Positions 2,976 through 10,407 of a DNA stretch of 24,688 nucleotides are shown piece by piece. A model generated the notes under the pieces. The model was not told where the DNA came from. It did no database searches and worked only from the letters and a program-made list of their open reading frames with translations. A program made the position numbers and the translations under genes. How positions within the stretch are numbered: the first letter of the stretch is position 1; each line of letters begins with the position of its first letter. The DNA comes from a virus, in IMG/VR virus record IMGVR_UViG_3300042549_010119, positions 1 to 24,688 of that record; one strand, 5' to 3'.

Positions 2976-3853
2976 TGGCTAATAAAAAACCAACCCCTAA
3001 ATCACAAAGAGAAATAAGTATTTCTCAACAAGAACCTTATCAACAAGGCGGACCTGGTTTTCAACCTATAGGAAATCCTAATGATTCTGAATTAAATAGA
3101 GGAAATCAATTTAGTTTTAAAGGAGATACTACTAAACCTCTTACTTTAAGTATTCAAGATATAGATGAAGCTATATTTTATTATTTTACTGAAGTTATAA
3201 AACCATATGTAATTCAAAATGGACAAAGACTACCTGTACCTATTATTTATGGTAGTCCTGAAAAATGGAAGTCAATTCAAAAAGACGGATATTATAGAGA
3301 TAAAGTTGGAAAAATAATGTCTCCTTTATTAGTATTTAAAAGAGATGATTTAACTAAAAATAGAAGTATAGGAAATAAATTAGATGCAAATCAACCTCAT
3401 TTATATACTTCAATGGTTAAAACTTACTCTAAACGTGATTTTTATACTCCTTTTGATGTACTAAATAATATTAAACGAGAAAAAGAACAATATGCTATAG
3501 TAATACCAGATTATGTAACTATAAAATATAGTTGTATGATTTATACTTATTACGTAGAACAAATGAATAAAATAGTAGAAGCAATTAATTACGCATCTGA
3601 TTCATATTGGGGAGACCCAGCAAGATTTAAATTTAGAGCAATGATTGATTCATTTAATACAATTATAGAAACAAATGATGGTCATGATCGTGCTGTTAAA
3701 AGTAGTTTTGATATCAAATTAAACGGATATATAATCCCAGATGTAGTACAGAAAGATATGAATGCAGTTAAAAAAATTCCTACTGTTACTAAAACTATAT
3801 TTGGATTTGAAACTACTAATAATATTAATCAAACTCCTAACACTCAAATTTGA
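2975..3853 (+). CDS. Proximal tail sheath stabilisation protein, gp15-like
   Basis: The protein has 292 residues (T4 gp15 has 272). The core follows the gp15 pattern: PVPIIYGSPEKW, a conserved PLLVFKRDDL strand, VTIKYSCMIYTYYVEQMNKI, then RAMIDSF and a strand with FDIKLNGYIIPD. In T4, gp15 forms the hexamer that ends the tail tube and sheath and joins the tail to the neck. The N-terminal 45 residues are low-complexity and Gln/Pro-rich. The start overlaps the upstream stop by one base. The TGA stop lies inside a TTGACA sequence that may be a -35 box for the next gene. Fit to the family and to the T4 gene order is good. Confidence 0.72.
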   Translation: MANKKPTPKSQREISISQQEPYQQGGPGFQPIGNPNDSELNRGNQFSFKGDTTKPLTLSIQDIDEAIFYYFTEVIKPYVIQNGQRLPVPIIYGSPEKWKSIQKDGYYRDKVGKIMSPLLVFKRDDLTKNRSIGNKLDANQPHLYTSMVKTYSKRDFYTPFDVLNNIKREKEQYAIVIPDYVTIKYSCMIYTYYVEQMNKIVEAINYASDSYWGDPARFKFRAMIDSFNTIIETNDGHDRAVKSSFDIKLNGYIIPDVVQKDMNAVKKIPTVTKTIFGFETTNNINQTPNTQI

Positions 3854-3878
3854 CAATTTAAAAAAAAGTTATTATAAT
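3850..3878 (+). promoter_or_regulatory. Consensus sigma70-type promoter (TTGACA-17-TATAAT)
   Basis: TTGACA at 3850-3855 and TATAAT at 3873-3878 match the bacterial housekeeping consensus exactly, with a 17-base spacer. The next start codon is at 3886, only 7 bases after the -10 box, so a transcript would be leaderless or nearly so. The match and spacing are seen directly; activity is inferred. Confidence 0.5.
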
Positions 3879-3885
3879 ACAAATC

Positions 3886-4137
3886 ATGGAAAAAAAGTTT
3901 TTAACAGAAGAAGAATTAAAAGGTTTAAAAGATTTAAACACTGCAACTCAAGATCTAATTATCAAGTTAGGCCAAAATGAATATCAGGTACAAATTTTTA
4001 ATGATCAAAAAAAAGAGTTAATTAAAGAATTTGAAACATTAAAAACAACTGAAATAACATTTAGTCAAAATCTCCAATCTAAATATGGAGTAATAAATGT
4101 TAATATCGAGACAGGAGAGATTACATCGATTAATTAG
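3886..4137 (+). CDS. Small coiled-coil protein of unknown function
   Basis: The protein has 83 residues. It is mostly helical and charged (MEKKFLTEEELKGLKDLN, then KKELIKEFETLK) and ends in a short strand pair, YGVINVNIETGEI. Small proteins of this general type occur in T4-like phage genomes, but I cannot name a function. It sits alone between the gp15-like and sheath genes, at the place where T4 has the terminase genes 16 and 17. It seems to have its own promoter and ends in TAG. A scaffold-like or regulatory role is possible but not supported by any motif. Confidence 0.7.
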   Translation: MEKKFLTEEELKGLKDLNTATQDLIIKLGQNEYQVQIFNDQKKELIKEFETLKTTEITFSQNLQSKYGVINVNIETGEITSIN

Positions 4138-5989: not shown

Positions 5990-6478
5990 ATGGCAGTATT
6001 ATCACCAAACGAAATATTTTTTACAGCATTTGAACCTAAAGTAAAAAATCGTTTTATTATGTATGTAGATGGAATTCCATCTTATATGATAAAGAAAATA
6101 GGCGCAGTAGGAGTAACAATGGATGAAATTAAATTGAACCACATTAACGTTTACCGTAAAATTAAAGGTAAAGCTGCATGGGATGATATTGAAATGACTT
6201 TATTTGATCCTATCACACCATCTGGAGCTCAAGCAATAATGGAGTGGGTTCGTTTACATCATGAATCTGTTACTGGTCGTGATGGTTATTCTGATTTTTA
6301 TAAAAAAGATGTTACCATTAACGTATTAGGACCTGTAGGTGATATCGTTTCTGAATGGATTATTAAAGGTGCATTTATTAAATCTGCAAGATTTGGTGAT
6401 TACAGTTGGGATGATGAAAACGCAGCTCAAGAAATATCAGTAAACTTAGGTATGGATTATTGCATATTAAATTACTAA
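5990..6478 (+). CDS. Tail tube protein, gp19-like
   Basis: This is the major tail tube subunit (162 residues; T4 gp19 has 163). It begins with a short N-terminus leading to KNRFIMYVDGIPSYMIKK. It then shows the typical tube-fold blocks IKLNHINVYRKIKGKAAWDD, TLFDPITPSGAQAIMEWVR and WIIKGAFIKSARFGDYSW. The protein stacks as hexameric rings to form the inner channel. It lies between two intrinsic terminators and has its own promoter-like motif, so it is probably a single-gene transcription unit. Four of five arginine codons are CGT, as in the sheath gene, which fits a very abundant product. Confidence 0.93.
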   Translation: MAVLSPNEIFFTAFEPKVKNRFIMYVDGIPSYMIKKIGAVGVTMDEIKLNHINVYRKIKGKAAWDDIEMTLFDPITPSGAQAIMEWVRLHHESVTGRDGYSDFYKKDVTINVLGPVGDIVSEWIIKGAFIKSARFGDYSWDDENAAQEISVNLGMDYCILNY

Positions 6479-6572: not shown

Positions 6573-7328
6573 ATGGAACAAGTTACAAATCAAGAAACAC
6601 CTAAATTTAATTTTCCAACAGAAACAATTGAACTTCCATCAAAAGGATTATTATATCCAAAGGAAAATCCATTATCATCAGGTAAAATAGAATTAAAATA
6701 TATGACGGCTAGAGAAGAAGATATTCTAACTAACCAAACATATATACAAAATGGTACTGTACTAGATAAATTATTACAATCATTAATTGTAACCAAAATT
6801 AATTATAATGATCTAATTGTGGGAGATAAAAACGCAATCATGATTGCAGCTCGTATTTTAGGTTATGGTAAAGATTATACATTTGAATATGGTGGTGAAC
6901 CATACACTGTAGATTTATCTACACTTGATAATAAACCATTTGATGTATCAATGATTAAATCTGAGGGAGTAAATGAATTTGAATATTCTTTACCACACAC
7001 TGATAATGTTATTACATATAAAATTTTATCTCATGGAGATGAAATTAAAATTGATGCTGAATTAACTGGTTTAAAGAAAATTAATAAAAACGCATCTCCT
7101 GATTTATCTACTAGGTTAAAATATATCATTACTTCAATAAACGGAAATCGAGACAATAAAGATATCAGAAATTTTGTTGACAATCATTTGTTAGCTCGAG
7201 ATTCTCGAGAAATTAGAAAACGTATTAGAGATTGTCAACCAGATGTAGATCTATCTTTTTTTCCCGAAGGGAGTTCCAATAGAATCGATATTCCAATTGG
7301 GATTAAGTTTTTTTGGCCTGACCTCTAA
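6573..7328 (+). CDS. gp26-like baseplate/tail assembly protein (possible tail assembly chaperone)
   Basis: The protein has 251 residues. It carries the signature of the T4 baseplate protein family (gp26-like, Pfam T4_baseplate): IELPSKGLLYPKENPLSSGK, IELKYMTAREEDILTN, and later AARILGYGKDYTFEYGGE. In T4, gp26 is needed to assemble the baseplate hub. Here the gene sits between the tube and tape-measure genes, where lambda-like and P2-like phages keep their tail-assembly chaperones. Its last codons (IGIKFFWPDL) run over a seven-T stretch and overlap the next gene by 32 bases. A +1 or -2 slip there would join residues 1-247 to the downstream frame. Confidence 0.8.
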   Translation: MEQVTNQETPKFNFPTETIELPSKGLLYPKENPLSSGKIELKYMTAREEDILTNQTYIQNGTVLDKLLQSLIVTKINYNDLIVGDKNAIMIAARILGYGKDYTFEYGGEPYTVDLSTLDNKPFDVSMIKSEGVNEFEYSLPHTDNVITYKILSHGDEIKIDAELTGLKKINKNASPDLSTRLKYIITSINGNRDNKDIRNFVDNHLLARDSREIRKRIRDCQPDVDLSFFPEGSSNRIDIPIGIKFFWPDL

Positions 7329-7623
7329 CAACGCCCCAATTATGAGGTCGGCTTTATTCACCCAAATCCATGAAATAGTATTTCATGGTAAGGGTGGATA
7401 CGACTGGAACACAGTTTATGAAATGCCTCGATGGTTACGTCAATTTACTTTTAATAAAATTCAAGATTTTTATAATAAAGAAGCAGAAGCACAAGAAAAT
7501 GCTGCATCTTCAAATAAAAATACATTAATTGATCCTTCAGGTAATATTAATCGTGAAAATTGGAAAGGTATCCCAACTCCAATTCAGCCTGGTAAATCCG
7601 ATAATAAAGTAAAATATAAATAG
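7297..7623 (+). CDS. gp51-like small protein, likely expressed as a frameshift extension of the gp26-like gene
   Basis: The open frame gives 108 residues from a TTG, or 94 from an ATG at 7342; neither has a Shine-Dalgarno sequence. The conserved-looking core is LFTQIHEIVFHGKGGYDW then MPRWLRQFTFNKIQDFYNKE, which I associate with the gp51-type baseplate hub assembly proteins that follow gp26 in T4-like phages. The tail is low-complexity. The frame is +1 relative to gp26, and the overlap holds a slippery T run followed by a stem-loop. The product is therefore probably made mainly as the C-terminal part of a gp26-gp51 fusion of about 349 residues. Separate translation from the ATG at 7342 is the main alternative. 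Confidence 0.7.
   Translation: MGLSFFGLTSNNAPIMRSALFTQIHEIVFHGKGGYDWNTVYEMPRWLRQFTFNKIQDFYNKEAEAQENAASSNKNTLIDPSGNINRENWKGIPTPIQPGKSDNKVKYK
7307..7353 (+). other. Putative programmed ribosomal frameshift element (+1 or -2)
   Basis: The gp26 frame reads AAG TTT TTT TGG across seven Ts at 7308-7314. A +1 slip of the P-site TTT re-pairs perfectly and continues in the downstream frame with GGC; a -2 slip gives the same frame with one extra Phe. Five bases after the T run begins a 6-bp stem, GACCTC at 7320-7325 with GAGGTC at 7344-7349. It extends as GGCC/GGCT past a single bulged T. The loop has 18 bases and contains the gp26 TAA stop. Such a GC-rich hairpin stands out in this AT-rich sequence. 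Frameshifting is inferred, not shown. Confidence 0.6.
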
Positions 7624-7665: not shown

Positions 7666-8520
7666 ATGGCTGATTTAAGCAAAAAAGAAATAGAAGAGCT
7701 AAAAAATCTTATAAACCTTTTAGATAAAAACATAAAAGGTGTGAGTTTTGACAACTTAGTTAAATCTGCAGATGCGGCTCGTGTTGTTTTAAAAGATTTA
7801 AGATTAGAAGCTAGAGAATTTACTGATGATATCAGTACAGTAGCTCAATCATTCAAAGAAATAGTTAACGAAATATCTAAAACCCGCACAGCAACAAAGG
7901 ATACAGCTAGTTTATTTAATCAACTTTACAATATATCTAATAAAATATTGTATGATCAAAAAGATATTTCTAATTTATCTCAAAAAGATATTAAGTTATT
8001 AAAACAAAAAGCTGAACAAACTAAAAAACTATTTGAAGCTAATAAAGATATATTAGAACAAGAAAAATCTTCTTTGGATGCTCAAAAATTAGCTCAAGAA
8101 CGATTAATAAAAAATATTTCTAATCAAAGATATAATTCTTTAGCTAATAATAAATTACTTAAGGCATCCGAAGATGAGTTAGGTAAAATAAATAAAAAAT
8201 TAAAAGAAAAGGAATTAGCTTTAAATGAGGTAAATCAAATAGTAAAAAAAGAAGGTACTTTATATCCGAGTATTATAGCTAGTTTAGATAGGATTAATGA
8301 CAGAATAGAACAAGAAAATAATTTACTAGGATTAACAGGAGGAGCAGCATCTGGTTTAAATGATATATTTAGTAAATTTGGTTTAGATGGATTATCTAAT
8401 GCTTTAGGTTTAAATAAAGCTTTAGAAATAACTCAAGATAAAGTTAAAACTATAGTTAAAGCTAAAGAAGAAGAAGAAAGATTAGCATTTGAACTAAAAC
8501 AACTAGATGAAGAAAAATAA
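7666..8520 (+). CDS. Tape measure protein, N-terminal part (ends at in-frame TAA)
   Basis: These 284 residues form the start of the tail tape-measure protein, the gp29 equivalent, which sets tail length and passes through the tube. The sequence is almost entirely helical coiled coil rich in Lys, Glu, Gln and Leu (KKEIEELKNLINLLDKNI; KASEDELGKINKKLKEKEL), with a short glycine-rich hinge (GLTGGAASGLNDIF). It stops at a TAA inside a charged helix (QLDEEK, stop, KRQQKEKDLEAQ). The same frame then continues uninterrupted for another 628 codons, so this is almost certainly one gene with a nonsense codon rather than two genes. The position after the tube and gp26-like genes fits a tape measure. Confidence 0.75.
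   Translation: MADLSKKEIEELKNLINLLDKNIKGVSFDNLVKSADAARVVLKDLRLEAREFTDDISTVAQSFKEIVNEISKTRTATKDTASLFNQLYNISNKILYDQKDISNLSQKDIKLLKQKAEQTKKLFEANKDILEQEKSSLDAQKLAQERLIKNISNQRYNSLANNKLLKASEDELGKINKKLKEKELALNEVNQIVKKEGTLYPSIIASLDRINDRIEQENNLLGLTGGAASGLNDIFSKFGLDGLSNALGLNKALEITQDKVKTIVKAKEEEERLAFELKQLDEEK
8518..8520 (+). other. In-frame TAA stop within the tape-measure reading frame
   Basis: The context is GAA GAA AAA TAA AAA AGA CAA CAA. One base change (TAA from AAA, CAA or GAA) would restore an open frame of 913 residues, and the residues on both sides form the same Lys/Glu-rich helix. Possible explanations are an assembly or sequencing error in an A-rich run, a real mutation, or stop readthrough. 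TAA ends most other genes here, so a changed genetic code is unlikely. Confidence 0.85.
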
Positions 8521-10407
8521 AAAAGACAACAAAAAGAAAAAGATTTAGAAGCACAAATTCTTGAAGAAATAAAAAAGAAAAACGACGAACGAGCAGCTCA
8601 AGGTAAATTACCTTTAACTGGCGGACAGTTAGATACTAATTTAATAGGAAAAGCAGCTTTAGCTAAGAAAAAAGAATTAGAATTTACCAAAGAACAAAAC
8701 GCAGAAGCAGATAAACTAAATGAAAAAGAAAAAGAAAGACTTAAAACATTAAAGGACACAGCAGCAGCAGTAGGAAACTCAGGAAGTAAATTTTCTGTAA
8801 TGCTTGACTATGTTAAAAATTTAGGAACCAATTTAAAGAAAAATCTTACTGATCCATTATTTGTTGCTGGTTTAGCATTTAAATATATACTTAGTGGTTT
8901 TTTATCTTTAGATAAAGCTCAAGCTGAATTTGCAAGACAAACAGGTCGTACTGTTGATCATTTTGATACATTAAATAATAGTTTATTATCATCTGCTGAT
9001 TATATAGAAGCAGCAGGTGCTTTAACTAAACAATTAGGTATGGATGCTACATCCATATTTACTGAAGATACAATTAAAGAAGCAGCTGAACTACACGTTC
9101 TTATGGGTTTATCAGCTGATGAAGCTAGTAAATTAGCTATTTTTTCTAAACTTAATGGTAAAGAATTAAAATTATCTAATGAAAATGTAATAAAACAAAT
9201 TAGTAATTTTAATAAAGTAAATCGAACTGCTTTATCTGGTCAAGCTATATTTCAAGATATAGCACAAACTACAGATATTATAGCTGTAAATTTAGGAGGT
9301 GATGCATCAAAAATAGCGGCAGCTAATTTAGAAGCAAGAAAATTAGGATTATCTTTAGGTGATGTAGATAGAATAGCTGCTTCATTATTAGAATTTGAAT
9401 CTTCCATATCAGCAGAATTAGAAGCTGAATTATTAACAGGTAAAGAACTTAATTTAGAAAAAGCAAGATTATTAGCATTAAATAATGATTTAGAAGGTCT
9501 TGCAAAAGAAATAGGTAATAATGAAGCTATAACTAGTGCATTTGCTTCTAAAAATAGAATACAGCAAGAAGCTTTAGCTAAATCTATTGGTTTACAAAGA
9601 GAAGATTTAGCTAAAATGGTTATAGCTGAAAAACAAAGAGCAGGATTAACTGATGAGGAAGTTGCTAAAGCAGCAGGAATGACTCTTGAAGACTATAAAC
9701 GATTATCAGTTCAAGAAAGTATAAATAAATCTATTGCAAAAATGGGTGAAGCATTAGCTGGACCATTAGAAATGGTAGCTAATCTTTTAAACAGTTTCGG
9801 ACTAATGAAAATACTTATATTAGGTATTGGGACTATTATGACAGTTCAACTAGTTAAAGGTATGGCTGATTTTGGTAGATTATTAATAACTGCTATTCCA
9901 AAATTAGGAGTAATATTAGGCTTAGAGTCAGGTATAGCAGCAGCTAAATTAACAGGTTTAGCCGCAGCTACACTAGGTATAGGAGCAGTAATAGCTATGG
10001 GTGTAGCTGCTTCAGTTATAGATGCAATGACAAGTAAGGTAAATTCTGCTAAAGGTACAGGTATAGGTGATGGTTTCTTTCCATCAAAAGGAAAAACTCA
10101 AATATCTACTAAAGAAGGTGTATTTAATCCATCTCCAAATGATGATATATTAGTTCGCCCTGACATTGGTGGAATGATGAAAAATACAAGTACTGTAAAA
10201 TCAAACAATTCTAATTATTCTTCAATGGTTGCAGAATCAAAAGCACAAACTGCTATACTAAAAGATATGGTTAATACTCTTAGATCTGAAAGAACAACAG
10301 TAGTTCAAGTAGGAGGAGATGCATTTGCTAAACAAACATTAAGAGCAATAGGTAACAATACAACCGAAACTTTTGATCGACTAGCTGTAGGAACTTCTTA
10401 TACTTAA
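8521..10407 (+). CDS. Tape measure protein, C-terminal part (in-frame continuation, no clear start of its own)
   Basis: These 628 residues continue the tape-measure frame after the TAA. The first in-frame ATG is not until 8800, with no ribosome-binding site, so independent translation would lose about 93 residues. The region starts as coiled coil and then becomes a helical domain with typical tape-measure features: GLAFKYILSGFLSLDKAQAE, repeated Ala/Leu-rich helices (FESSISAELEAELLTGKELN), and two hydrophobic stretches (MKILILGIGTIMTVQLV and ATLGIGAVIAMGVAASVI) that could enter the host membrane. It ends with the common NPSPNDDILVRPDIGG-type C-terminal block. The whole gene would give about 913 residues against about 590 in T4 gp29. 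By the usual 0.15 nm per residue this predicts a tail near 135 nm. Confidence 0.8.
   Translation, partial: KRQQKEKDLEAQILEEIKKKNDERAAQGKLPLTGGQLDTNLIGKAALAKKKELEFTKEQNAEADKLNEKEKERLKTLKDTAAAVGNSGSKFSVMLDYVKNLGTNLKKNLTDPLFVAGLAFKYILSGFLSLDKAQAEFARQTGRTVDHFDTLNNSLLSSADYIEAAGALTKQLGMDATSIFTEDTIKEAAELHVLMGLSADEASKLAIFSKLNGKELKLSNENVIKQISNFNKVNRTALSGQAIFQDIAQTTDIIAVNLGGDASKIAAANLEARKLGLSLGDVDRIAASLLEFESSISAELEAELLTGKELNLEKARLLALNNDLEGLAKEIGNNEAITSAFASKNRIQQEALAKSIGLQREDLAKMVIAEKQRAGLTDEEVAKAAGMTLEDYKRLSVQESINKSIAKMGEALAGPLEMVANLLNSFGLMKILILGIGTIMTVQLVKGMADFGRLLITAIPKLGVILGLESGIAAAKLTGLAAATLGIGAVIAMGVAASVIDAMTSKVNSAKGTGIGDGFFPSKGKTQISTKEGVFNPSPNDDILVRPDIGGMMKNTSTVKSNNSNYSSMVAESKAQTAILKDMVNTLRSERTTVVQVGGDAFAKQTLRAIGNNTTETFDRLAVGTSYT

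Follow-up and report, generated by a model that had tools for sequence, protein, structure and literature searches.

The window analysed here is the whole of an IMG/VR virus record of 24,688 bases, in which the open reading frames follow the order sheath, tube, a tail assembly chaperone (TAC) pair and tape measure. The tail tube gene (5990-6478, on the plus strand like all window features below) matches phrog_4542, tail tube, at E 5.5e-23 and a tape-measure-like gene lies at 7666-10407, so that the pair between them has the position typical of tail assembly chaperones. The short chaperone, TAC-N, which is T4 gp26-like, occupies 6573-7328, encodes 251 residues and ends with TAA at 7326-7328. 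Across a slippery run of seven T (7308-7314) its frame reads ATT AAG TTT TTT TGG CCT GAC CTC TAA, and the next open frame, exactly +1 relative to 6573-7328, carries the TAC-C extension from GGC at 7315 to a stop at 7621-7623. Joined at the run, the two frames give a product of 349 residues. An earlier sequence-only reading of this DNA had described the run as TTT TTT T in the gp26 frame, the downstream frame as exactly +1 and the fusion as about 349 residues long, and was right in all three. The 15 nucleotides from the run onward, TTTTTTTGGCCTGAC (7308-7322), are dual-coded, with FFWPD in frame 0, FFGLT in frame +1 and an immediate TGA in frame -1. The +1 frame also holds a TTG (7297-7299, 11 nt before the run), which is an unlikely start, and an ATG (7342-7344), which is a possible weak internal start and is not conserved. 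A hairpin, GGCC(T)GACCTC / GAGGTCGGCT, spans 7315-7353 with the zero-frame TAA inside its loop.

A long open reading frame begins 25-82 nt past TAC-C in all 54 relatives with enough sequence, and the gene after TAC-C in Flavobacterium phage immuto is annotated as tail tape measure protein. The window's own tape-measure-like frame is open save for one in-frame TAA at 8518-8520 (GAA AAA TAA AAA AGA), which is probably a substitution or an assembly error since relatives have a single long ORF. Some annotations, that of AM101 for one, already list both chaperone proteins as tape measure protein assembly chaperones.

Kinship with T4 gp26 and gp51

TAC-N matches phrog_150 ('baseplate hub') at E 5.8e-9, a family that also takes in T4 gp26 (6.7e-71), T4 gp51 (2.6e-84) and cyanophage proteins; the match runs to profile position 264 with the fused protein and to 202 with TAC-N alone. 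LIS04, LR756508 and L201 are intermediates that bridge the window TAC-N to the gp26/gp51 family, and homology of TAC-N with gp26/gp51 was found by way of these intermediates and phrog_150; direct hhalign of the clade TAC-N against T4 gp26/gp51 or cyanophage TAC-N gave no significant score. Pfam PF12322 (T4_baseplate) does not reach the window clade, and pairwise profiles of clade TAC-C against the gp51 C-terminus match weakly (E 0.045 and 0.004). The AlphaFold model of TAC-N (pLDDT 90.5) retrieves from BFVD, at E values down to 1e-16, predicted structures of baseplate hub proteins from T4-like and Bacillus phages; TAC-C modelled separately gives a low-confidence model.

T4 gp26 and gp51 are themselves paralogues by hhalign (P 99.4, E 5e-22), and gp51 runs about 46 residues past the end of gp26. 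Judged from these profiles, T4 gp51 is a full-length gp26 paralogue plus an extension, and T4 makes the same short/long pair from separate genes, the short form from 26 and the long form from 51. It is then the fused product that corresponds to gp51; the sequence-only reading had given the name gp51-like to the downstream ORF by itself. The gp26/gp51 paralogy, the span of the phrog_150 match and the structure match fit the proposal of Vladimirov, Gautam & Davidson 2022 (Virology 566:9, PMID 34826709), as relayed in PMC10885494, that T4 produces its short and long TACs from separate genes.

Conservation of the frame relation and of the site

A protein search of IMG/VR returned 80 loci at 58-76% identity, of which 78 are testable, L065 and L072 being cut off. 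TAC-C lies in the +1 frame in 77 of these 78, as in the window, overlapping the end of TAC-N and usually lacking a start of its own. The sole exception, L023, has an insert between TAC-N and TAC-C, an ATG for TAC-C and an altered site (TTC TTT TGG CCC GAT). The insert ORF (L023:4720-5500) reads, judged by eye, like a GIY-YIG homing endonuclease. From its sequence, L023 is a natural loss of the frameshift with a GIY-YIG-like ORF at the site. L211 and L216 likewise have a TAC-C with its own ATG, and all three have a changed or missing run or motif; L087 probably also has a separate downstream gene starting at ATG. The earlier reading had held that relatives with clearly separate genes would speak against a frameshift: such genes occur in these few loci and not in 77 of the 78 testable relatives.

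The motif by itself leads to the same locus. A motif-only DNA scan of IMG/VR with the pattern TTTTTTTGGCCTGAC-N(3-9)-TGA found at least 119 further loci and, among the matches listed, retrieved nothing but the TAC locus. Among those matches the motif lies at the 3' end of a frame resembling TAC-N in 119 of 119 new loci and is followed by an open +1 frame in all 117 that are testable, two being too short. The TAC-C domain pattern is present in 116 of the 117, and in the remaining locus, L261, TAC-C is recognisable by eye. Many motif-found loci belong to a distant branch whose TAC-N carries Cys-x-x-Cys; its member L277 shares about 32-36% identity with LR756508 and with the isolated phages Mel-JY01 and immuto. 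In immuto (vB_FspM_immuto_2-6A) the site reads AGC TTT CTT TGG CCT GAC.

Codon analysis of 69 non-redundant sequences shows ordinary synonymous variation throughout TAC-N except at TTT-TTT-TGG-CCT-GAC, where it is lost. This makes TTTTTTTGGCCTGAC the most synonymously constrained five-codon window of the gene and, close to the TAC-N stop, a conserved slippery sequence. Proline is CCT in 69 of 69 sequences against 46% usage in the gene, and aspartate is GAC in 65 of 65 against 24% of Asp codons; the P values for these site codons were computed without regard to relatedness and are indicative only. The first codon of the run is TTT in all 69, and the second is TTT, CTT or ATT, so that the heptamer is TTTTTTT in 60 sequences, TTTCTTT in 8 and TTTATTT in 1. 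CCT and GAC are frozen because the same bases encode FFGLT in the +1 frame, where the third base of each is the second base of the +1 Leu or Thr codon. Selection on GLT directly after the run implies that translation in the +1 frame begins at the run, and so locates the shift there. Further downstream, variation by codon position in TAC-C (0.41/0.31/0.50) is highest at the third position of the +1 frame. Codon bias also occurs upstream of the run in the window (7284-7307) and relatives: GTC at -24 (27/47, usage 8%), GGG at -9 (33/58, usage 11%), CTT at -6 and AAC at -3 (24/25).

The significance of the site lies in this conservation, not in the run itself or the hairpin. Run length was rejected as evidence, since T7 runs are rarer in the window than in shuffles: 20 T7/A7 runs occur in the whole window, counting T7 on both strands, against a shuffle mean of 51. 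A second T7 run in the same gene, 52 nt upstream, shows no comparable conservation in relatives. The GC-rich hairpin around the stop, which the sequence-only reading took for a standard part of a recoding site, is real in the window, where it folds at -14.4 kcal/mol (z -1.9 over 70 nt, -2.9 over 50 nt). It is absent from relatives: no consensus pair was found in 24 aligned sequences, and the mean z of structure after the site is -0.05 across 69 sequences. The hairpin was accordingly rejected as a stimulator and appears at most to be a private addition of the window sequence; no conserved downstream stem-loop and no pausing signal was found at the site. An upstream pairing, TTGGGC / GCCTGA, was also discarded, as its left arm varies (GGA, GGT) and is not conserved. 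The alignment of relatives proposed earlier as a check thus upholds the frame relation (77 of 78) and the T run (uninterrupted in 60 of 69) and fails for the hairpin.

Direction of the slip and rival explanations

We consider programmed +1 ribosomal frameshifting, by which one gene yields two tail assembly chaperones, to be the explanation of this locus, with a probability of roughly 0.9 on the sequence comparisons; conservation thus favours the joining of the gp26-like and downstream frames proposed earlier, in the +1 direction. Most ribosomes would stay in frame through TTT TTT TGG CCT GAC CTC TAA, which gives TAC-N with its 251 residues. We infer that in a minority the Phe-tRNA, on UUU followed by a pyrimidine, slips one base forward and re-pairs, after which the ribosome would continue with GGC CTG ACC in the +1 frame to make the 349-residue TAC-NC with its TAC-C domain. 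As lambda gpG/gpGT suggest by analogy, the short and long proteins may, in a fixed ratio, coat the tape measure protein encoded just downstream and bring in tube subunits. Common to the +1 sites is a UUU with a pyrimidine after it, as UUU U or as UUU C in TTTCTTT, TTTCTA and TTCTTTCGT, and Phe-tRNA can re-pair one base on at each form, least well at TTTATTT (n=1). A canonical -1 shift (X XXY YYZ) would have no product to continue in that frame, since the motif's -1 frame stops within it ('LA*') and meets TGA at once in the window. Just before the run stands C or G in 64 of 69 sequences and T in 2 of 69, though AAT is the commoner Asn codon; this steers clear of T TTT TTY as used by the -1 shifting cyanophages and, together with the TGA in the -1 frame, favours +1 over -1.

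The strongest rival, though improbable, is a slip at the same site by -2 instead of +1, which would produce the identical frame with one extra Phe (FFFGLT). The sequence-only reading had left both directions open, and T7 and TTTCTTT do permit -2 re-pairing on paper. However, -2 re-pairing is poor or impossible at TTT ATT T, TTT CTA and TTC TTT C, whereas a +1 move on UUU-Y keeps cognate pairing at nearly all sites, and natural -2 shifts are rare. The frame claimed earlier therefore stands, with +1 the favoured direction and -2 possible for the T7 and CTT forms.

It is still less likely that TAC-C is a separate protein with its own start (TTG 7297 or ATG 7342) or is reached by re-initiation past the TAC-N stop. 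Both codons exist in the window, which tempers the earlier statement that the downstream frame has no good start, and the ATG-started genes of L023, L211, L216 and probably L087 are what independent starts would look like. Against this, no start is conserved: in 13 of 69 sequences the stretch from where the +1 frame opens up to the TAC-C domain lacks ATG, GTG and TTG altogether, 44 of 69 have no ATG for TAC-C, and an ATG between run and conserved domain occurs in 4 of 69 only, the window's 7342 included. TTG 7297 is absent from many relatives, and the ATT codon that would give rise to a TTG start is not overrepresented. The +1 frame opens just three codons before GGC in six loci, and selection on the GLT codons after the run argues that translation enters the +1 frame at the run, as ribosomal frameshifting would have it.

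Transcriptional slippage, by which some mRNAs would lack one U or gain two, is very unlikely. It occurs on long T/A runs and the site is a homopolymer run, but 9 of 69 sequences have an interrupted run (TTTCTTT, TTTATTT), it is missing at the related +1 loci TTTCTATTC (LR756508), TTCTTTCGT (GXN1) and TTCTTTTGG (L201-L215), and the equal run 52 nt upstream shows no conservation. An assembly error or broken gene, which the stray TAA in the adjacent tape measure gene might suggest, can practically be dismissed given the same frame and letters in 77 independently assembled relatives and, among the matches listed, in 117 motif-found loci, and the same frame relation in isolated Flavobacterium phages.

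Comparison with known systems

The sequence-only reading knew of no frameshift described for this T4-family gene pair, but this kind of event is already known: as relayed in PMC10885494 and PMC12846349, Vladimirov, Gautam & Davidson 2022 recognised the TAC genes of T4-like phages and reported frameshifting in some groups of them. Those genes likewise belong to phrog_150, form a short/long pair between tube and tape measure and carry poly-T at the end of TAC-N. The signal cited from that study in PMC12846349 is a -1 poly-T site, whereas the window clade uses +1, avoids T before the run and has a -1 stop in the motif. Within the open-access papers searched we found no description of the +1 form, its extreme conservation or a switch of direction in one gene pair, and the +1 version and the switch may not have been published previously.

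Cyanophages (Kyanoviridae and relatives) resemble the window in having a homologous TAC-N followed by a TAC-C without its own N-terminal part. Their TAC-N matches T4 gp26 (hhalign P 98.9, E 1.5e-17) and their fused product matches gp51 over its whole length (E 3e-16). They differ in direction: cyanophage-type TACs have an invariant T TTT TTC in 80 of 80 IMG/VR loci with TAC-C in frame -1, whereas the window clade shifts by +1. In L102-L181, L091 and L101 the T TTT TTC is followed by one more sense codon and the stop. In L090 (S-SCSM1, 3670-3720) the cyanophage heptamer is present, yet TAC-C is in +1, which may be due to a sequence error or to an indel downstream of the stop. L085 (Stenotrophomonas phage RAS14, a jumbo phage, 3735-3990) has a TAC-C-like frame in -1 after GTTTTTTTATC and on its sequence is likely another -1 case. 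The absence of the first ~200 residues from cyanophage gp51 was pointed out by Sullivan et al. 2010 (PMC3037559), who did not mention frameshifting; a frameshift would account for these 'missing' N-terminal residues.

On balance we lean towards a picture in which a large, mostly uncultured T4-like branch makes its long chaperone by an ultraconserved +1 shift that does without a conserved hairpin, cyanophages by a -1 shift at the same position in the protein and T4 from two genes, so that one gene pair would have switched direction and also escaped frameshifting by duplication. If this is true, alterations close to a short T run brought about the switch. The natural series of +1, -1, split genes and an endonuclease-interrupted site could become a test bed for what sets shift direction. 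The +1 frameshift would also correct the annotation of a whole phage group, from which the long chaperone is missing even in RefSeq. For L081 (Flavobacterium phage immuto, 3730-3955) RefSeq calls just a 36-aa internal TAC-C fragment. To our knowledge, bacterial +1 sites besides prfB are few, and the conserved +1 signal of 15 nt in Bacteroidota phages lends itself to testing.

Among better known systems, the shift of lambda gpG/gpGT is -1, whereas that of the window clade is +1. Lambda also makes two products from one gene in the tube-tape measure interval (Xu, Hendrix & Duda 2004). Solved TACs offer no significant structural match for the window TAC-N; in the PDB fold search with its model nothing was significant, with HK97 TAC 2ob9 at E 4.8 (prob 0.20). 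L086 (Streptococcus phage GXN1, 3705-3720) has a +1 site, TTC TTT CGT, followed by an unannotated +1 frame open for about 100 codons; this site resembles the influenza PA-X shift site. The +1 sites of prfB and PA-X are CUU U and UUU C. Both genes are unrelated to the window TAC, and the window shift lacks the stop codon and the Shine-Dalgarno at prfB spacing. The likeness to prfB and PA-X would lie in the slip itself, in which a P-site tRNA on NUU or UUU moves forward before U or C.
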